A stretch of 43,272 nucleotides of DNA from Tenericutes bacterium ADurb.Bin239 (GTDB taxonomy: Bacteria > Bacillota_I > Bacilli_A > RFN20 > CAG-826). The notes under the pieces are model-generated. The model did not search any database and was not told the origin of the DNA. It saw only the letters and a program-made list of their open reading frames with translations. Position numbers and translations under genes: made by a program. Below, piece by piece: positions 1,017-11,548 of this stretch; position 1 is the first letter of the stretch; each line of letters begins with the position of its first letter. The stretch lies in the NCBI GenBank assembly GCA_002069815.1, contig MWCB01000013.1, forward strand, positions 1 through 43,272, written 5' to 3'.

Positions 1017-2201
1017 ATGAGTAGAAAATTTAAAGATCGACCAAAAAAGGTCAAAGCCGAAAAAGTAAAACGTGAACCAGATATGCGTAAACGCGCATAT
1101 TTAGCCTCGCTTTTTAATAACCGCGCCGCTTTTGATGGCGGAAGACGGGAACCGTGGTGGGTTGCTATTATCTTTTTTGTTTTATCCATTGTGATTGCGT
1201 TAGTTCCAGCAATGGTTCAAGTTGGTAAAACTAAAGGGAGCGATATTTATAGAGGTGCTTTATATCATACAGATGTTGCTTTTACTAAGTTTGTTGAAGA
1301 ACTCGAAGATAAAAACGCCGATCTTACAGTTGTGACTGTAAATGAAGAAAATATCTTCCAAGCGAGTCCAGAATTTGTTAATTTAGTGGCCACTAAAACT
1401 TTTAATTTAACAGATGGCGCTACTAACGAAGTAGTCCCCTACTATTCCTTCACTCAAAAGCGCACTGTATATACGCGGGACGAAAATAATGAACCTATCA
1501 CTAAAGAAGTTGATTTTGAATACTTGCGCGTTTATTACACTGGTGATATTCAAAGTTCATTCATGCATGAAGGAAAAGTTTACACCGGTGATGTCTTCTT
1601 AGCGAATAAATTATTAACATTAAGTGAAGAAGATGCTGTTGACAACGTGACTTCACATTTAATTGTTGGTCGTAAAGCTTTATATACGAGGCTTTATAGC
1701 CCCACTGGTATTATTAAACCTAGTACTCCTACTTTAGCTTATGAAGGTCGAACAAGCACCTTACCAGTTGGGATGAATATTCGTGACTTTGGAAAAGTTA
1801 GTAAAGATGGTTTACCAATCAGTGCTGCTGATGTTGATTATACTGATAAAGTTATTGAAAACTTTGGTTACATGCAAGATCTTGGTTATAAAGAAGTTAA
1901 AGTTCGTACCTTTTGGTTCCAAACAGGCATTTATGCTGTTATCTTTACCATTATTGGTGTAGTGATGGGTCTTATTATCTTTATTTCCACGCGCGGAAAG
2001 ATGAACCCAAATCGTGATCTTAAATTTGGTGAGTCGCTTAAAATTGGTGCGTGGCTATTACCAACTCCAGCCTTAATTACTTTAGTATTAGGCTTTATCT
2101 TACCTGCTCAATATTTCCAAATGATTTTTATTATGACGCTTGGTATGCGAAGTGTATGGTTGACAATGCGAACCTTAAACCCAAATGCACCACAAAAATA
2201 A
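1017..2201 (+). CDS. Uncharacterised membrane protein, possibly DUF1189-like (394 aa)
   Basis: A very basic N-terminus (about 45 residues, rich in K and R) precedes one transmembrane segment at residues 48-68. A long, probably extracytoplasmic, domain covers about residues 70-295. Three C-terminal hydrophobic segments follow at about 302-325, 343-363 and 366-382. The C-terminal pattern, with a conserved-looking basic loop (RGKMNPNRDLKFGES) before the last helices, recalls the DUF1189 family, but this is an impression and not a firm assignment. GAGGT stands seven bases before the ATG. It is a single-gene unit with its own promoter and a strong terminator, and is transcribed against the replication fork. 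Function unknown. Confidence 0.8.
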   Translation: MSRKFKDRPKKVKAEKVKREPDMRKRAYLASLFNNRAAFDGGRREPWWVAIIFFVLSIVIALVPAMVQVGKTKGSDIYRGALYHTDVAFTKFVEELEDKNADLTVVTVNEENIFQASPEFVNLVATKTFNLTDGATNEVVPYYSFTQKRTVYTRDENNEPITKEVDFEYLRVYYTGDIQSSFMHEGKVYTGDVFLANKLLTLSEEDAVDNVTSHLIVGRKALYTRLYSPTGIIKPSTPTLAYEGRTSTLPVGMNIRDFGKVSKDGLPISAADVDYTDKVIENFGYMQDLGYKEVKVRTFWFQTGIYAVIFTIIGVVMGLIIFISTRGKMNPNRDLKFGESLKIGAWLLPTPALITLVLGFILPAQYFQMIFIMTLGMRSVWLTMRTLNPNAPQK

Positions 2202-2217
2202 ATCTTATTAAAAATTA

Positions 2218-2248
2218 TCACCCCGTTGCCTAGCGGGGTGATTTTTTT
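2218..2248 (+). terminator. Intrinsic terminator, possibly bidirectional
   Basis: The 8-bp stem TCACCCCG/CGGGGTGA with an 8-nt loop is followed by seven T residues on the plus strand. The minus-strand gene ends at 2247, so the same hairpin, followed there by a weaker T-rich stretch, may also end that operon. Confidence 0.9.
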
Positions 2249-3104
2249 ATAAATTATTAACAATGTAATTTAAGATTGCTAATGTAAGATCAATATCACT
2301 TACTTTATTAACTACTACTGTTCGCATATTCGAATTAACTTCAATAACGAGTGGTCCTTTTTTACTTACCATAATATCAACGCCAGCAAAATGACCTTTT
2401 ACTGCTTTAGTGGCCTTTATTGCTAATTCTTCCATTTCTCGCGTAGGTTTCACTAAAGTAGCGGTCCCGCCTTGATTTATATTGCTTCGGAAATCGTGGT
2501 CGTTAACTCTTTTAACAGTGAAGATAACTTGATCCCCAATAACATTAACACGATAATCGGTACCTTTTTCACCTTGAACAAAAGCTTGCGCTATTAAAGG
2601 TTTGGTGCCATGTTTTTTAATTATTTCTTTTAGTTCTTCTTCAGTAGTGGCTAAATAAACTTGCTCACCAAAAGAACCGAAGCGTTCTTTAATCACAAGT
2701 GGAAAAGATAACGCTAGTAATTCTTTTTTATATTCATCATAATACTCAATAATGTTCCCATAATAATGAAGCGGGAATACAAAGAAACGGGGCTGCGCTA
2801 TACTCGCGGAATCAAGAGCGGCGGCCGTTAAAGCCTTATCATCACAAAGATAAATAGTTTCGGGATTATTAAAAACTTTAATACCTTTGCTTTCTAAAGT
2901 TCTTGCTAGATAAATATCTTTATCCCAAAAAAGGCAAAAAGCAGGAGTGTTCTTTTTTAAATAACTTAATACGTTTTGATTTTTTACTTCTAATAATTTC
3001 AAATTTTTAATTGTTTTTGCTTTATTTAAAAACTCGTCTACCTGAACACGGAACTTGGGACTGTTTTGACTAATATTCGTGACAAAAATGCCCTTAATCG
3101 CCAT
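2247..3104 (-). CDS. RimK/LysX-like ATP-grasp ligase
   Basis: This ATP-grasp fold protein of 285 residues resembles RimK-type ligases, which join an amino acid or peptide to a carboxylate through an acyl phosphate. Visible marks are K139 in VIKE, a Gly/Ser-rich nucleotide loop (RFGSFGEQ, 141-148), DYRVNVIGDQ (183-192), NINQGG (208-213), GVDIM (241-245, metal-binding Asp) and VIEVNSN (253-259, metal-binding Glu and Asn). The start at 3104 is chosen because GGGAG precedes it and the longer frame has no such site. It overlaps the 3' end of the 126-aa gene by 11 bp, so the two are translationally coupled. The substrate is not known. Confidence 0.85.
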   Translation of the reverse strand: MAIKGIFVTNISQNSPKFRVQVDEFLNKAKTIKNLKLLEVKNQNVLSYLKKNTPAFCLFWDKDIYLARTLESKGIKVFNNPETIYLCDDKALTAAALDSASIAQPRFFVFPLHYYGNIIEYYDEYKKELLALSFPLVIKERFGSFGEQVYLATTEEELKEIIKKHGTKPLIAQAFVQGEKGTDYRVNVIGDQVIFTVKRVNDHDFRSNINQGGTATLVKPTREMEELAIKATKAVKGHFAGVDIMVSKKGPLVIEVNSNMRTVVVNKVSDIDLTLAILNYIVNNL

Positions 3105-3474
3105 AATCGCTCCCGCGCGAAATATCGTCAACTACTATTTTTGCGCCTTCAATTACCTCTTCAATTTCGACAAGAATATACTTTTCATCATAAAACACTG
3201 GTTCATTAATATCGCGCGTAAAAATAACATATTTTCCTTTGCGGGCAATGTTAAAAAGGACCGCCATCACATTATCATGTTCGCTAGGAAAACGTTCTAA
3301 AATTCGTGTTAGTTGCGTATAAAACCATGGTTCAATATAAAATTCACCATCGCCAAATATATAACCGCGCGCAAAAGCGGTTTGGGGATTACTGACTCTT
3401 TTTAAATGCTTAAACTCACTATAATTCCACTCGGGCACAAGGTTATCATAATTATATTCATAATGATCAGTCAT
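3094..3474 (-). CDS. Unknown acidic soluble protein (126 aa)
   Basis: I do not recognise this protein. It is soluble-looking, rich in aromatic and acidic residues (N-terminus DHYEYNYDNLVPEW), has no membrane segment, and ends in an acidic tail SDYGD. A good GAGGAG site precedes the ATG. It lies 14 bp after rlmH at the end of the gdpP-rplI-dnaB-walJ-rlmH operon and overlaps the start of the ATP-grasp gene. That position suggests a partner or substrate of the ligase, but no motif shows it. Confidence 0.75.
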   Translation of the reverse strand: MTDHYEYNYDNLVPEWNYSEFKHLKRVSNPQTAFARGYIFGDGEFYIEPWFYTQLTRILERFPSEHDNVMAVLFNIARKGKYVIFTRDINEPVFYDEKYILVEIEEVIEGAKIVVDDISRGSDYGD

Positions 3475-3488
3475 AATATTACTCCTCT

Positions 3489-3965
3489 TTATTTATGATA
3501 TGTTTCGTTATTTGCTATTTTAAATGCTCTAAATATTTGTTCAAGGAGCATAACCCGAAATAGTTGATGGGGAAATGTCATCTTCCCAAAACTAAGGTGC
3601 ATGTTGGCTCGTTTATACACTTCTTTGCCTAAACCATATGAACTTCCAATAACGAACACTACTTTACTATTACCGGTGTTGAATGCATTTTGTAAATCAA
3701 AACTAAAAACTTCAGAACTTAACATTTCGCCCTCTGGTGTCAGGGCGTAAACAAAGTCGCGCTCACTAATTCTCTTTAAAATAGTTTGGGCTTCTTTATT
3801 TAGGGCGCTTTCAATTTGGGCGTCGCTTGCTTTTGCAGGAATTCTTTCTTCCTTAATCTCTATAACGCTAATATCAGTGTATTTACTAATCATTTTACAA
3901 TATTCGTCACTACTAGACAGTAATGAACCTTTAGTTTTACCTACAACAATTACATCAATTTTCAT
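3489..3965 (-). CDS. rlmH: 23S rRNA (pseudouridine-1915-N3) methyltransferase RlmH
   Basis: RlmH is a SPOUT-class enzyme that methylates pseudouridine 1915 in helix 69 of 23S rRNA on 70S ribosomes. The protein has 158 residues, normal for the family. The SAM-binding knot is visible as FVIGSSYGLGKEVY, followed by LSFGKMTFPHQLFRVMLLEQIFRAF and the family-typical C-terminus YHK. The gene overlaps walJ by 11 bp, and this walJ-rlmH coupling fits the neighbourhood seen in other Bacillota. Confidence 0.97.
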   Translation of the reverse strand: MKIDVIVVGKTKGSLLSSSDEYCKMISKYTDISVIEIKEERIPAKASDAQIESALNKEAQTILKRISERDFVYALTPEGEMLSSEVFSFDLQNAFNTGNSKVVFVIGSSYGLGKEVYKRANMHLSFGKMTFPHQLFRVMLLEQIFRAFKIANNETYHK

Positions 3966-4713
3966 TTAATTCTCCGCTTATTGGTACGTATTGATTCGCG
4001 GTCACAACTTTTAGCTTGCTTTGATCAATTCCATACTTTCTAAATACTTTATCAAATGTTTCAAGTGCTGCTTCGGGCGTATTTGCTTCTTCGCTTAGGT
4101 GCGCTAAGACGATATGTTTAGTGCGTGGCCCCACTAGTTCCGCTAAATAATGCGCGCACGCTTCGTTTGATAAATGACCTTCATCACTTAATATTCTTTG
4201 AATCAAATCAAAAGGCCGATTAGTTTTAAGTAATAAGCCTGGACTATGATTAGATTCCATAATATAGAGATCTGCGTTTTTCATTAACTCTAAATTACGG
4301 GTGCTAATATATCCTGTATCAGTCATATACACAACTTTATATTCATCCGTTTCTAAAATATACCCTACTGAATCACTTACATCATGGCTAGTTGGTAATG
4401 GTGTTATTTTAAATTCGTTGATGATAAATGGAAGATAAGGTTTTACTTCTGTGTATGGTGCTGCAAACGGTAATGTATTCGCGGGGGCGTATATGTTTCC
4501 GTTCGCGACTTTATTAAATTGTGTCGTAATGTGGTCACCATGTTTATGCGTGAAAAGTACGGCAAAAACGCGGTCTTCTTCCAAATTAAAAACATTTAAG
4601 CGTTCTTTATATTCTTTAAGGCTTAACCCTAAATCAATTAATAATTTAGTGTGGGGCCCTTTAATAATTGTTGCATTGCCTTTTGAGCCGCTTGCTAGGA
4701 TAAAGTACTTCAT
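3955..4713 (-). CDS. walJ: MBL-fold metallohydrolase WalJ/YycJ
   Basis: This is a metallo-beta-lactamase fold protein of the YycJ/WalJ (VicX) group, linked in Bacillota to cell division and the WalRK system and proposed to act as an exonuclease. The zinc motif THKHGDH is at residues 55-61. Further ligands are likely in PTSHDVSDSVGY and VVYMTDTGY, and in the C-terminal LAHLSEEAN. It has 252 residues, close to family length. It overlaps dnaB by four bases (ATGA) and ends in TGA, evidence that TGA is a stop codon. No walRK genes are in the window. Confidence 0.92.
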   Translation of the reverse strand: MKYFILASGSKGNATIIKGPHTKLLIDLGLSLKEYKERLNVFNLEEDRVFAVLFTHKHGDHITTQFNKVANGNIYAPANTLPFAAPYTEVKPYLPFIINEFKITPLPTSHDVSDSVGYILETDEYKVVYMTDTGYISTRNLELMKNADLYIMESNHSPGLLLKTNRPFDLIQRILSDEGHLSNEACAHYLAELVGPRTKHIVLAHLSEEANTPEAALETFDKVFRKYGIDQSKLKVVTANQYVPISGELNEN

Positions 4714-6203
4714 TCGTTTTTATAACTTGATCCTCTGTGTGTTCGTTGTAAGTTCATTAGGAGCTGCCGTGTTTGTTCGTCGGGGTTTTCAAAACTTGAA
4801 ATGGCTTTAAAGAATAACAGCGTAATATTTCCTGTTTCACCGTTGCGGTTTTTCGCTAAGATGATGTCCACGGGTGAAATATCCAAATCATTACCACTTC
4901 GTTCGAGAGTATCGTAGTAAGGTTGATACATAGCATCCACTGGTTTGATCGTTCCTTGATTAACATAATAATCTTCACGATACATAAGGAACACTAAGTC
5001 TGCATCTTGCTCTAAACTACCTGATTCACGGAGATGACTCATTTGTGGCATTTTATCGCGGGTTGCTTCAACTGCTCGCGAAAGTTGTGATAAAGCAACG
5101 ACTGAAATTTTTAATTCGCGGGCAAGTCCTTTTAAAGCAGCACTAATTTCACTAAGTTGAATTTGTCGACTTTCAACGGGACCAGTGGTAGTAATTAAAC
5201 CAATATAATCAATGAAAATAGCGCACAAATCATCATTTTCACGTTTTAGTTTTCGAGCCTTAATAAGTAAATCATTAATATTAATGCCTGGTGTTTCATC
5301 TATGTATAACTTGACGTGTTTTAAATTTTCTAATGTTTCATAAACTTTGGTGCGTTCTCGACTAGGCAGAGAACCAGTCATAACCGCTTTGTGTTTGACC
5401 CCCGACACTTTTGAAACAAGGCGTTGCATTAATTGTTGATTGCCCATTTCAAGAGAGAAAAAACCAACAGTTCGATTGTTTTGTACAGCCATGTTGTAGG
5501 CTAAACTCAAACCAAAAGCTGTTTTACCAACCGCAGGACGCGCCGCGACGATAATGTAATTATCTTTTTGAAAACCGTGGGTATATTTATCAATATCAAT
5601 AAATCCAGTTGTACTTCCTGTTAAGCGACCCGTACCAGATTTTTGCATTTTTTCTAAATGGGCTTTTAAATCTTTCGCAATATCACCAAGTGATTCAAAA
5701 TCCATTATTCGGCGTTCTTCCGCGACTTTGGTAACGTCACGAAGTAATTGACTTAAATATTCATTAACATCACCAACTTGACCTTTGCGATGGGTTTCAA
5801 TACCACCGTCAAGCACCTTTAATGCCTTACGCAATAAATCTAAATCACGTAACTTTAGGCAATAGTCTTTAATTGCAGAGTATGTAATTGCTTCTTCAGC
5901 AATTGCACTTAAATATTCAACTCCACCAACTGCGCTAAAAAGTTTTAATTCTTTTAACTTACCACTGACGGTAACAATATCAACATTAATTCCTTCGTTA
6001 TGTAAAAGAGTCATGGCATGAAAAATAGCACGGTTATTATTATCAATGTTTGGAAAATAACTATACCCTAAGTGTTGCATTCCAACTTCAAGTGCTTCTG
6101 GGCTTGTGATCATTAAGCCTAAAACCGTTCGTTCGAGAATGGTGTCACTTGGGATGATTACACTTTTATCAGTTAGGGTAAATGGATTGTTATCAAATTT
6201 CAT
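4710..6203 (-). CDS. dnaB: Replicative DNA helicase DnaB
   Basis: DnaB is the hexameric 5'-3' helicase of the replication fork (called DnaC in B. subtilis). The N-terminal primase-interaction domain covers about residues 12-120. The RecA-like ATPase has the Walker A AARPAVGKT (220-228), FFSLEM (248-253), a Walker B strand AIFIDYIGLI, and LSQLSRAVE followed by RESGSLEQDADLVFLM. At 497 residues it is slightly longer than usual, with a C-terminal extension after the ATPase (LLMNLQRTHRGSSYKNE). No intein is present. AGGAG precedes the ATG, and rplI ends two bases upstream, the usual rplI-dnaB pairing in Bacilli. Confidence 0.98.
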   Translation of the reverse strand: MKFDNNPFTLTDKSVIIPSDTILERTVLGLMITSPEALEVGMQHLGYSYFPNIDNNNRAIFHAMTLLHNEGINVDIVTVSGKLKELKLFSAVGGVEYLSAIAEEAITYSAIKDYCLKLRDLDLLRKALKVLDGGIETHRKGQVGDVNEYLSQLLRDVTKVAEERRIMDFESLGDIAKDLKAHLEKMQKSGTGRLTGSTTGFIDIDKYTHGFQKDNYIIVAARPAVGKTAFGLSLAYNMAVQNNRTVGFFSLEMGNQQLMQRLVSKVSGVKHKAVMTGSLPSRERTKVYETLENLKHVKLYIDETPGININDLLIKARKLKRENDDLCAIFIDYIGLITTTGPVESRQIQLSEISAALKGLARELKISVVALSQLSRAVEATRDKMPQMSHLRESGSLEQDADLVFLMYREDYYVNQGTIKPVDAMYQPYYDTLERSGNDLDISPVDIILAKNRNGETGNITLLFFKAISSFENPDEQTRQLLMNLQRTHRGSSYKNE

Positions 6204-6205
6204 AA

Positions 6206-6655
6206 TTACTCCTTATCCTTCACTAAAACCTTGACTTTAGCGATAACATCTTTAAATAATTCAACTTCTATAATAGTTGGTCCTAGTTGATTTAATGGTT
6301 GAAAGTTGACAAACTTTCGCCGATCCACATTAACTTTAAATTCTTCTTTAATTTTTTCTTCGACTTTTTTGGCGGTAATAGCGCCAAAAGCTTTACCACT
6401 TTCACCAATTGCAAGCACGAATGCGATTTCTTTTTCTTCAAGTTTTTTCTTGTTCACTAATGCTTCTTCTTTTTGCGCTTTTTCTTCAGCAATAGCGCGC
6501 GCTTGATTCGCTTTTAATTGTGAAATTGTGCGTTCATTGTACGGAACGGCAAGTTTGCGCGGGATTAAAAAGTTTGTGGCGTAACCATCACTCACTTCGA
6601 CAATTTCATCCTTTTTCCCAACTTTTTTAACTTCTGTTAATAAAATCACTTTCAT
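6206..6655 (-). CDS. rplI: Large ribosomal subunit protein bL9
   Basis: L9 is an elongated protein that binds 23S rRNA near the base of the L1 stalk. The N-terminal domain MKVILLTEVKKVGKKDEIVEV and the GYATNFLIPRKLA motif are clear, followed by a charged connecting helix and the C-terminal domain. The start at 6655 (149 residues) is preferred over a longer frame because GGGAGGG lies eight bases before it. It is placed between gdpP and dnaB with almost no spacing, as in Bacillus. Confidence 0.98.
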   Translation of the reverse strand: MKVILLTEVKKVGKKDEIVEVSDGYATNFLIPRKLAVPYNERTISQLKANQARAIAEEKAQKEEALVNKKKLEEKEIAFVLAIGESGKAFGAITAKKVEEKIKEEFKVNVDRRKFVNFQPLNQLGPTIIEVELFKDVIAKVKVLVKDKE

Positions 6656-6656
6656 C

Positions 6657-8744
6657 TTACCCTCCCTTCTTACCGCCAACAACCTTGGCTTGGCTTAAAT
6701 TTTGATTAATTACATCTTCCAAAATATCTTGAACTTCTTCTAAAGTCTTGTCTGTAAATACGGTTGCGGCGCTTGCTTGATGGCCTCCGCCTCCAACTTT
6801 TTCAAGGAGGAACTGGACGTTAATTTCACCATTACTGCGACCACTTACTTTAACAACTTTAGGGGCGGTATAACCAATAACAAACGATGCTTGAATGCCT
6901 TTAATCCGCATGCTTTGGTTGGCAACTTTTGATAATGTCTCAGGAGTTACAATATCGGTTTCATCAGCTTTAAGGAAAACAATGCCAACACTCAGTGTCG
7001 TCATATTTGCCATGATTTTGGTGATAAGTGCATATTCTTCAACATTATCTTTCAAAAAATCGTCCGCAGTCATAACATCAGCGCCCCAATCTTGTAAGAC
7101 CATGCTTGCTAAAAATGTTCTAGAACCGGTTGTCTTGGTCCGAAAGTAGTTGGTGTCCAAGTAAATTCCAGCAAGCATAAAGGTTGCATACTTTGGTGGT
7201 AATGTAAAGTTTGGAGTATTTCCGTAGTGTAACAGCTCCGTAACAATTTCACAAGTTGAACTTGCGGATGTTTCAATATAATCATAAAGCCGTTGGTCAA
7301 TAAATTCATCGGTTCGACGATGGTGGTCAATAATGATTACCTTATCAACTCTTTCAAGAAGTTTTGGATAAAGTGTTAGTTGTGGCCGTGACACATCAGC
7401 AATAATTAATAATGTTCCAGAATTAACAAGACTATAACTACCTTTTTGCTCACTAATTTCGTCAGGGGAAATAACCATGTCGTTCATTTCTTGTTTGCTA
7501 AACATTCGATTCACCGCTGTTCTTGTTTTTAATTCTGTTAAATTATTTTCATAAACTATACGCGCTGGCTGAAATTGGACTTTGGCTCCTTTTTGCGTTT
7601 TTTTCACAAAATCAGCCATAGCTTTTAACCCCAACGAAGCACCAAAAGCATCAAAATCAGTATCAGTGTGGGTCATAATTAAAACATTTTTAGCTTCTCT
7701 TATATGGCGGAAAATCGTGTCAGCATATAAACGAATTGCTGTTTTGTTGCGTTTTTCTGATTGCGAAGTAGCACCACCAATATATTCACTTTCTTCCCCA
7801 TAACGAGCAATAACAACTTGGTCCCCACCGCGGGCCATCGCGGTATCAATGGCATTTAAAACTAATTCATTAAGTTTTAATACATCAGGAAAATTATAAG
7901 CAAACGCCATTGAAAGCGAAATTTGATAATCAAGATTTACTGTTTTGTCTTTAATTTTTTGTAAGATAGAAAACTTATCAGCGTAAAGTTTATCAAAATT
8001 TTCTTTGTTTAAGATGAGCAAATAGGCATCTTCGCGATATTGTTTAAGTAATACGCCAAAACTTGAGAAGTAATCAAGAATAAGCCCGTTAACAATGCTA
8101 AAAACGGGGTTAGAGTGTTCGCCTTTAACAACAATATCCACGAAATTGTCAATAACAACTACCCCTAATACTGGAGCGGTTGCTTGATTACTATCGAATA
8201 GGTACTCAAATTCAGTAATGTCTTTGAAAAGGAAAATGCCTGCTTTACTTAAATATTTAACTTCGTAGTTCCGTGATTCAATTTCAACTTTGATAGTATC
8301 ATCAACATTTTCCGCAAGCGCCTCACTTAATTCAACAAGTCTAATCAATTCTGGCTTCCAAGCAAGAATATTTTTATCAATAATTAAAAGTCGACGATCT
8401 TTAAAAAGTTCGCTAGCCCAAGTAACGTTAAAATCATTATCAACGACAACAAGACCAAGCATTCCAAAGTTATATGCTTCTTTAACGTCACCCCCGAGTA
8501 AATTAACTAATTCGAAAGTTGTTTTTTTCCGAATCGTATTAATCCGCGCCGTAACAACGACAAAACCAATAAGATTAAAAAAGATAGTGGCAACCGCTAT
8601 TGTAAAAATAATAAACGAAGAAAGGATTTCTTGAAAATTAAATAAATCTAAATAATAGAAAATGCTAATCAAAGCAAGAATAATTGCTTCAATTATAACA
8701 AGGATAATGGTTCGTTTTCGTAATTTAGTAATAGCTTTAATCAT
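6657..8744 (-). CDS. gdpP: Cyclic-di-AMP phosphodiesterase GdpP (YybT/DhhP-type)
   Basis: GdpP hydrolyses c-di-AMP to pApA at the membrane and so affects envelope stress and potassium balance. Two transmembrane helices lie at about residues 13-31 and 40-65, followed by a PAS-like region, a degenerate GGDEF domain (no GGDEF motif; ends with ARGGDQVVIARYG) and the DHH/DHHA1 phosphodiesterase. Catalytic metal ligands appear intact: HTDTDFDAFGA near residue 357, ADVSRP, IDHHRR near 470 and GIYLDTN. The DHHA1 motif GGGGHQASAAT lies near 649. 695 residues is slightly long for the family. GAGGT precedes the ATG. It is first in an operon reading toward rplI and dnaB. Confidence 0.97.
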   Translation of the reverse strand: MIKAITKLRKRTIILVIIEAIILALISIFYYLDLFNFQEILSSFIIFTIAVATIFFNLIGFVVVTARINTIRKKTTFELVNLLGGDVKEAYNFGMLGLVVVDNDFNVTWASELFKDRRLLIIDKNILAWKPELIRLVELSEALAENVDDTIKVEIESRNYEVKYLSKAGIFLFKDITEFEYLFDSNQATAPVLGVVVIDNFVDIVVKGEHSNPVFSIVNGLILDYFSSFGVLLKQYREDAYLLILNKENFDKLYADKFSILQKIKDKTVNLDYQISLSMAFAYNFPDVLKLNELVLNAIDTAMARGGDQVVIARYGEESEYIGGATSQSEKRNKTAIRLYADTIFRHIREAKNVLIMTHTDTDFDAFGASLGLKAMADFVKKTQKGAKVQFQPARIVYENNLTELKTRTAVNRMFSKQEMNDMVISPDEISEQKGSYSLVNSGTLLIIADVSRPQLTLYPKLLERVDKVIIIDHHRRTDEFIDQRLYDYIETSASSTCEIVTELLHYGNTPNFTLPPKYATFMLAGIYLDTNYFRTKTTGSRTFLASMVLQDWGADVMTADDFLKDNVEEYALITKIMANMTTLSVGIVFLKADETDIVTPETLSKVANQSMRIKGIQASFVIGYTAPKVVKVSGRSNGEINVQFLLEKVGGGGHQASAATVFTDKTLEEVQDILEDVINQNLSQAKVVGGKKGG

Positions 8745-11187: not shown

Positions 11188-11475
11188 TTATTTAGCGATA
11201 ACAAGATGACGAATTACATTTTTGTTTAATTTTGATAACCGTTCGAATTCAGCGATTGTTGCCGCGTCGCTTTCGACATTAACAACTACATAATATCCTT
11301 TATGTAATTCATTAATCGGATACGCAAAATCACGTAAACCCCAATTTTCGGTGTCTACATCAATAACTTTACCGCCTAAGTTGGTAATGATTTGATGGAG
11401 ACTTTCCATTTCGGCTTTACGTTCTTCTTCACTTAAATCAGCGAGAAGAATATACATAATTTCGTACTTTTTCAT
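11188..11475 (-). CDS. rpsF: Small ribosomal subunit protein bS6
   Basis: S6 pairs with S18 on the 30S platform. The 95-residue frame starts MKKYEIMYILLADLSEEE and contains WGLRDFAYPINELHKGYYVVVN, typical of S6. The start at 11475 is selected by GGGAGGTG eight bases upstream; an in-frame upstream extension would run through the leader hairpin. S6 ends VIRHLVIAK without a glutamate-rich tail, so it offers no obvious sign that the RimK-like protein acts on it. Confidence 0.97.
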   Translation of the reverse strand: MKKYEIMYILLADLSEEERKAEMESLHQIITNLGGKVIDVDTENWGLRDFAYPINELHKGYYVVVNVESDAATIAEFERLSKLNKNVIRHLVIAK

Positions 11476-11500
11476 AAGCACACCTCCCTCTGGTCTTTTT

Positions 11501-11548
11501 CGGCTGTTGCTCACCAACAGCATGGAGTATATTACAAGCCGTAATATA
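11501..11548 (-). promoter_or_regulatory. rpsF leader: S6:S18-type regulatory RNA
   Basis: The leader between the rpsF promoter and start has two hairpins. The first is TATATTAC/GTAATATA (11548-11528). The second is CTGTTG/CAACAG (11520-11504), followed immediately by CCG. A CAACAG-CCG arrangement is the pattern of the S6:S18-binding leader known upstream of rpsF in many bacteria, where it mimics the 16S rRNA site. Feedback control of rpsF-ssb-rpsR by the S6:S18 complex is therefore likely but inferred. Confidence 0.7.

Follow-up and report, generated by a model that had tools for sequence, protein, structure and literature searches.

What purpose is served by a C-terminal peptide that is kept almost to the letter in an order-wide protein belonging to no described family, and is the RimK-family ATP-grasp protein encoded directly behind it a partner, a modifying enzyme or a neighbour? 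This question is raised by a gene pair on the minus strand of the window (the whole stretch of DNA analysed, 43,272 nucleotides from Tenericutes bacterium ADurb.Bin239), and the presence of both genes was confirmed. The gene of the small protein (3094..3474, minus strand) starts with ATG and encodes 126 residues, with a conserved core, GEFYIEPWFYTQL, and a C-terminal tail. As the preliminary description had stated, this protein is acidic and ends in SDYGD (pI 4.68; 23 Asp and Glu against 13 Lys and Arg), whereas the ligase is basic (pI 9.04). The ligase gene (2247..3104, minus strand) encodes 285 residues from an ATG at 3104 and contains the motifs GSFGE, DFRSN and EVNSN. The list of open reading frames gives a TTG start at 3131 for it; the ATG at 3104 (MAIKGIFV) is common to relatives of the same genus, and GGGAG lies 5 nt upstream of this ATG, within the tail codons. 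The two genes overlap by 11 bp (3094..3104), and the ligase ATG is placed within the Tyr-Gly codons of the tail DISRGSDYGD (3097..3126, minus strand). The locus had been described as a two-gene unit at the end of an operon; this was borne out, and the 11-bp overlap recurs exactly in the window's own genus, g1 (4 genomes), and in genus g9 (3 genomes). With this recurrence, and with the small gene in most of the genomes first searched, the unit is no chance feature of one contig. Measured from the first start codons found, the spacing is 2-5 bp in genera g10 and g50 and 90-274 bp in g4, g15 and g19.

The pair closes a block with the order GdpP-L9-DnaB-MBL-RlmH and is followed by a terminator-like hairpin (2217..2242, listed on both strands). 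The gene of the SPOUT methyltransferase RlmH (3489..3965, minus strand) lies directly upstream of the small gene in 17 of the 32 mapped loci of family f1, the window included, and was not recognised beside it in any of the nine mapped loci of families f3 and f5. The rest of the operon (3955..8744, minus strand) encodes what we take to be a metallo-beta-lactamase-fold (MBL) protein, DnaB, L9 and GdpP, and this block recurs in relatives. The hairpin separates the ligase gene from a convergent gene (1017-2201, plus strand) for a membrane-type protein that resembles Yip1 only below the cut-off, and relatives of this protein are encoded near the small gene in many f1 loci. A tmRNA gene is located at 562-906 on the minus strand; tmRNA tags usually end in LAA, and the end of the predicted tag, GNSNLSYSFA, differs from this. 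Around the small gene, the surroundings are variable, with HAD hydrolase, BacA, alpha/beta hydrolase, cyclodeaminase and other genes in some genomes; HAD (Cof-type) hydrolases in loci L088 and L090 and BacA in L090 lie beside it on the opposite strand, and further loci have open reading frames that resemble these in size and position. In locus L071, a UDP-glucose dehydrogenase-type gene (1527-2837, assigned by Pfam) is directly behind the ligase gene, and open reading frames of similar size, assigned by size or reading, occur in L088, L174, L175, L179 and L180.

The small protein of the window matched no Pfam or NCBIfam family above the curated cut-offs, in agreement with its earlier description as an unknown protein. 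A Pfam scan of 43 members gave a best E-value of 0.026 and at most three members per family, and none of the matches was convincing. A search with the single sequence found the protein in 43 of 58 genomes, its own included. With a profile, 245 of the order's 279 genomes gave a match, among them 140 of the 150 good-quality ones, and only genome G046 departs from a single copy. In a sample of the class, profile A1 matched 54 of 395 genomes, 53 within the order and one weakly outside it (E 2.9e-4). The broader profile A4 matched 52 genomes within the order among 390 class genomes, together with 10 weak and partial matches outside (one at E 6.6e-4, the others at 0.0017 or more). A wider family reaching into other orders was rejected because both profiles gave only weak matches there. 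Within the samples searched, the family is confined to one order of Bacilli, and in family f4 the protein was unmatched in all four genomes tested. The near relatives that carry names are metagenome-assembled genomes: UBA1361 (Bacilli), ADurb.Bin087 (Tenericutes) and an uncultured Bacillales bacterium. In the open PMC literature on LysW, RimK, tail proteins and RimK pseudoenzymes, we found no account of this family.

The window protein contains no Cys, and an N-terminal CxxC...CxxCG ribbon occurs in some members of families f2, f6 and f8 only. Four of the seven ribbon-bearing distant members scanned match the Pfam LysW ribbon below threshold (E 0.058-0.78), and two match the NCBIfam LysW model weakly (0.028 and 0.062). 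These ribbons also match several other ribbon families, some of them better than LysW. In the window protein, the N-terminal part may thus be such a ribbon after loss of the metal. The structural model of the small protein, built on 4 sequences, has a pLDDT of 76.7 and a pTM of 0.70 and predicts a small alpha/beta body; comparison with known folds gave no clear match (Foldseek best E 0.44, VIA best Z 3.7).

The best-conserved feature of the family is the tail that ends in SRGSDYGD and the stop codon. Among 85 distinct members with a stop (duplicates with the same last 70 residues were removed), 61 end in SRG[SCT]DYGD, 17 more in [DN][YW]xD and 7 in neither; the [DN][YW]xD end is thus found in 78 of 85, and a terminal Asp in 80 of 85. 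In the 43-member alignment, the mean entropy of the last 11 columns is 0.76 against 2.00 for the body, the last 8 columns rank as the most conserved of 105 eight-column windows, and 34 members have the exact SRGSDYGD end. Synonymous codons differ at every position among these 34 tails, and selection therefore acts on the peptide. Among the variants, NPxSDWKD-like ends occur in genus g27, DSN[YW][KT]D in f8 and DY[TK]D in part of f5. Residues 117-126 have a pLDDT below 50 and were taken as disordered, so that the tail is probably flexible. DYGD followed by a stop occurs only once in the window's own genome (94% complete). A DNA pattern for RGSDYGD-stop, in which Ser may also be Thr or Arg, matched 41 of the 395 class genomes, once each in 40 genomes of the order and once outside it; read backwards, as a control, it matched nowhere. 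Of the 53 genomes of the order that have the small protein in this sample, 13 lack the exact pattern, and nine of these belong to g27. In the genome outside the order, G426, no frame of at least 50 residues ends at the match, and the letters lie out of frame in a dnaE-like gene. The idea that the tail is a tag common to several proteins was dropped on account of the single occurrence in the own genome and this out-of-frame match. A search of the open PMC literature for the letters of the tail returned unrelated contexts only.

In the 279 genomes of the order, both genes were detected in 182, the small protein only in 63, the ligase only in 18 (picked by eye from the match tables) and neither in 16; many of the genomes are incomplete, and the ligase count takes in ligases elsewhere in the genome. 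A RimK-type ligase was undetected in 63 of 245 genomes with the small protein, and at least seven of them (G008, G020, G022, G023, G035, G047 and G056) keep an intact tail, among them G020, which is 100% complete. The TIGR00768 search gave no match in G008, G020 and G022; in the other four, proteins of about 400 residues scored only 17-22 bits, where the cut-off is 143.4. Because the tail is intact in genomes without a detected ligase, its function is independent of the ligase. The small protein is therefore more than a substrate of the window ligase, one of the roles proposed at first. A strict pair thereby fails the refuting test set in the preliminary description, wide occurrence of the small protein without the ligase.

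Seen from the ligase, the coupling is strict. The clade of the window ligase, defined by scores above 255 bits, has members in 16 genomes of 7 genera, and adjacency was read for all of them; in 14, the ligase gene follows the small gene immediately and on the same strand. The remaining two are uninformative: in G568 the ligase gene is immediately preceded by a run of N, and in G569 the contig ends. In the four genomes of g50, a far decayed relative (49-65 bits) lies 2-5 bp behind the small gene in every case, which brings the total to 18 of 18 informative genomes out of 20; g50 was noticed only from a fetched locus, and similarly decayed ligases elsewhere could have been missed. The g50 protein in locus L191 is encoded at 962-1855 on the minus strand, with counterparts in L124, L126 and L193, and a Pfam scan of one g50 copy gave only a sub-cut-off match to an unrelated family. 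In four loci (L067, L071, L088 and L178), the pair is intact though other genes separate it from the operon block. Of the modification pair proposed in the preliminary description, the coupling stands for the ligase clade, but a simple pair does not, and its catalytic side is weakened further by three lineages in which the ligase has lost catalytic motifs.

The glycine loop, DFRSN and EVN, a set of ATP-grasp motifs chosen in part from alignments, are all present in the window ligase. They are intact in g1, g4, g10 and g223 and, with changes in the loop, in g9; they are lost wholly or partly in g15 (1 genome), g19 (3) and g50 (4). The small protein of g15 has also lost its tail and reads NVFGKGV there, whereas g19 and g50 keep the tail intact beside ligases that lack these motifs wholly or partly. 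Therefore, decay of the motifs and decay of the tail are not uniformly linked. Estimates of dN/dS by the Nei-Gojobori method, which are rough, with many dS values above 1 and several near or at saturation, were 0.080-0.184 for pairs of intact ligases (g223 was saturated), 0.076 and 0.170 for decayed g19 copies (one pair saturated), and 0.077-0.165 for decayed g50 copies, with 0.306-0.433 against the distant G063. Close pairs of decayed copies overall gave 0.076-0.165; g15 is represented by one genome. By this rough measure, the decayed ligases of g19 and g50 stay under purifying selection. Hits shorter than 180 residues were left out of the ligase comparison, and a gene present in more than one of the overlapping loci entered the ligase tree once. 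In this tree, 13 copies of g1, g10, g4, g15, g223 and g19 group together (support 83/79). The adjacency label changes twice on this tree, and once in 13% of bootstrap trees; the g50 copies join other long branches in a grouping that the program flagged as possibly false. With the two changes and the possibly false placement of g50, a single origin of all 20 copies is neither established nor contradicted by the tree. A WDxD motif was also dropped as a mark of adjacent ligases, since it occurs in 3 of 28 others, which mostly read LDKD. Tandem RimK-type ligases, the second divergent, occur away from the small gene in L106 (2586-4286), L107 (3880-5570) and L108 (3986-5640), from genera g47, g40 and g26.

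The reading that we prefer, with a probability of roughly 0.4, is that the tail serves generally as a docking handle, to which the ligase binds as a partner in certain lineages, in some of them as an active enzyme. The small protein would belong to the core set of this order and offer a flexible Asp-Tyr-Gly-Asp-COOH handle ([DN][YW]xD) to a conserved putative partner. In some genera, including that of the window, it would be translated together with a RimK-type ATP-grasp protein that recognises this tail as well, in the way that LysX, the RimK-type ligase that loads LysW, binds the latter's EDWGE end. A ligase with an intact active site, such as that of the window, would probably attach an amino acid or an amine to the terminal Asp, a modification that would alter what the tail can bind; where the site has decayed, the ligase would be a pure tail-binding partner. 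The strict neighbourhood, the retention of decayed copies and the likeness to LysW and LysX together make binding of the tail by the ligase the most economical reading, and we infer that the ligase binds the tail, that it modifies it and that a main partner exists. Adjacency alone does not prove binding, and the model of the small protein has no fold match, so that the fold lends no independent support to a docking role.

It is possible, at somewhat lower odds, that the two genes are mere operon neighbours. The ligase would then act on another protein or on a small molecule, the end of the operon would be a tolerated place of insertion, and the tail would have nothing to do with the ligase. 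The variable surroundings of the small gene and the 63 carriers without a detected ligase are consistent with such an arrangement. It accounts poorly for the position of the ligase clade directly behind the small gene in every informative genome, for an overlap of exactly 11 bp in g1 and g9 alike and for decayed copies retained with low dN/dS.

More doubtful is a version in which the tail is an order-specific signalling handle, whose bare terminal Asp would be read by a putative widespread partner and written on by the ligase in some genera, with decayed ligases as non-catalytic readers or caps. If this were true, one family would display the path from a modifying enzyme to a pseudoenzyme partner. 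Whichever role the tail has, nature provides genomes in which the ligase is intact, decayed or undetected, and these make the roles of the tail and of its modification separable. If the ligase only binds, it would clearly exemplify a pseudo-ATP-grasp protein that is retained as a binder; if it loads the tail, the logic of LysW and LysX would have found a further use.

A carrier of amino groups of the LysW kind, in which the ligase would load the terminal acidic residue, other enzymes would process the load and a hydrolase would release it, is unlikely. The [DN][YW]xD-COOH tail resembles EDWGE, the partner is of the RimK type, and the ribbons of f2, f6 and f8 members, with their weak matches to LysW models, fit such a carrier. 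The Cys-free window protein does not, the ribbons also match other families, some of them better, and the tail persists where no ligase was detected. No ArgC/LysY was found over the cut-off in 58 genomes (12 had weak matches), and the own genome, 94% complete, had no match at all; an ordinary Lys or Arg carrier pathway was therefore judged unlikely.

Still less probable is that the ligase is a canonical enzyme of the RimK kind acting on S6 or on another general substrate. It passes the cut-offs of PF08443 (134.6 bits against 21) and of TIGR00768, the general RimK family of alpha-L-glutamate ligases (178.6 against 143.4), which confirms its first assignment as a RimK-like ATP-grasp ligase. Its solved relatives are S6 RimK, other alpha-L-glutamate ligases and LysX/ArgX, with S6 RimK best by phmmer. 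These matches favour a canonical enzyme. Among the NCBIfam models listed, however, TIGR00768 is the only one that it passes, so that it belongs to no family whose substrate is known and unrelated; its scores are 83.9 bits for the S6--L-glutamate ligase equivalog NF007764 (cut-off 331), 127.8 for the LysX/ArgX equivalog TIGR02144 (275.6), 102.1 for MptN (350) and 89.5 for CofF (300). The S6 ligase RimK requires an S6 with a C-terminal Glu. The putative S6 of the window (11188-11523, minus strand), labelled from its sequence and its place beside SSB, ends in HLVIAK without Glu. This disfavours S6 as the alternative substrate considered at the outset, and canonical S6 glutamylation by the window ligase is unlikely. 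In addition, GSFGE stands in the place of the GTQGI of S6 RimK. The model of the ligase itself was poor (mean pLDDT 58.8) and was set aside.

That the tail is kept for its DNA, for example because the operon ends in an attachment site or because the next gene starts there, is hardly credible. The ligase start lies within the tail codons in g1 and g9, and other Bacilli are known to have an integration site at the 3' end of rlmH, but the codon variety of the 34 tails contradicts conservation of the DNA, and small genes without a ligase behind them also have an intact tail.

Among known systems, the pair is closest in layout to LysW/ArgW and LysX/ArgX. As in LysW/ArgW, the free C-terminus of the small protein reads acid-aromatic-x-acid and goes together with a RimK-type ATP-grasp ligase, and distant members of the family have a zinc-ribbon-like N-terminus. 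The window protein differs from LysW in that it is more than twice as long and lacks Cys, and in that its terminal residue is Asp instead of Glu; SDYGD, or [DN][YW]xD in the family, is similar to EDWGE but another motif. The family further differs in that the tail is kept in genomes without a detected ligase and that some ligases have decayed. On the side of the enzyme, the alignment places GSFGE of the window ligase at the position of GSWGR in LysX and GTQGI in S6 RimK. In an excerpt of one study, GSWGR of LysX is described as recognising the EDWGE tail of LysW (PMC10433800). The window ligase shares with LysX/ArgX the aromatic residue at this tail-reading position, and has Glu where LysX has Arg. 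It also belongs to the same ATP-grasp family as the S6--L-glutamate ligase RimK (PF08443, TIGR00768) and has DFRSN and EVN motifs like it, but falls far below the model of that enzyme and has another neighbour gene. By analogy only, the near-invariant C-terminal peptide on a more variable body recalls the acidic tip of SSB, which in the window ends in DISDDDLPF; the two proteins and their sequences are unrelated. The C-terminal tips of SSB recruit partners.
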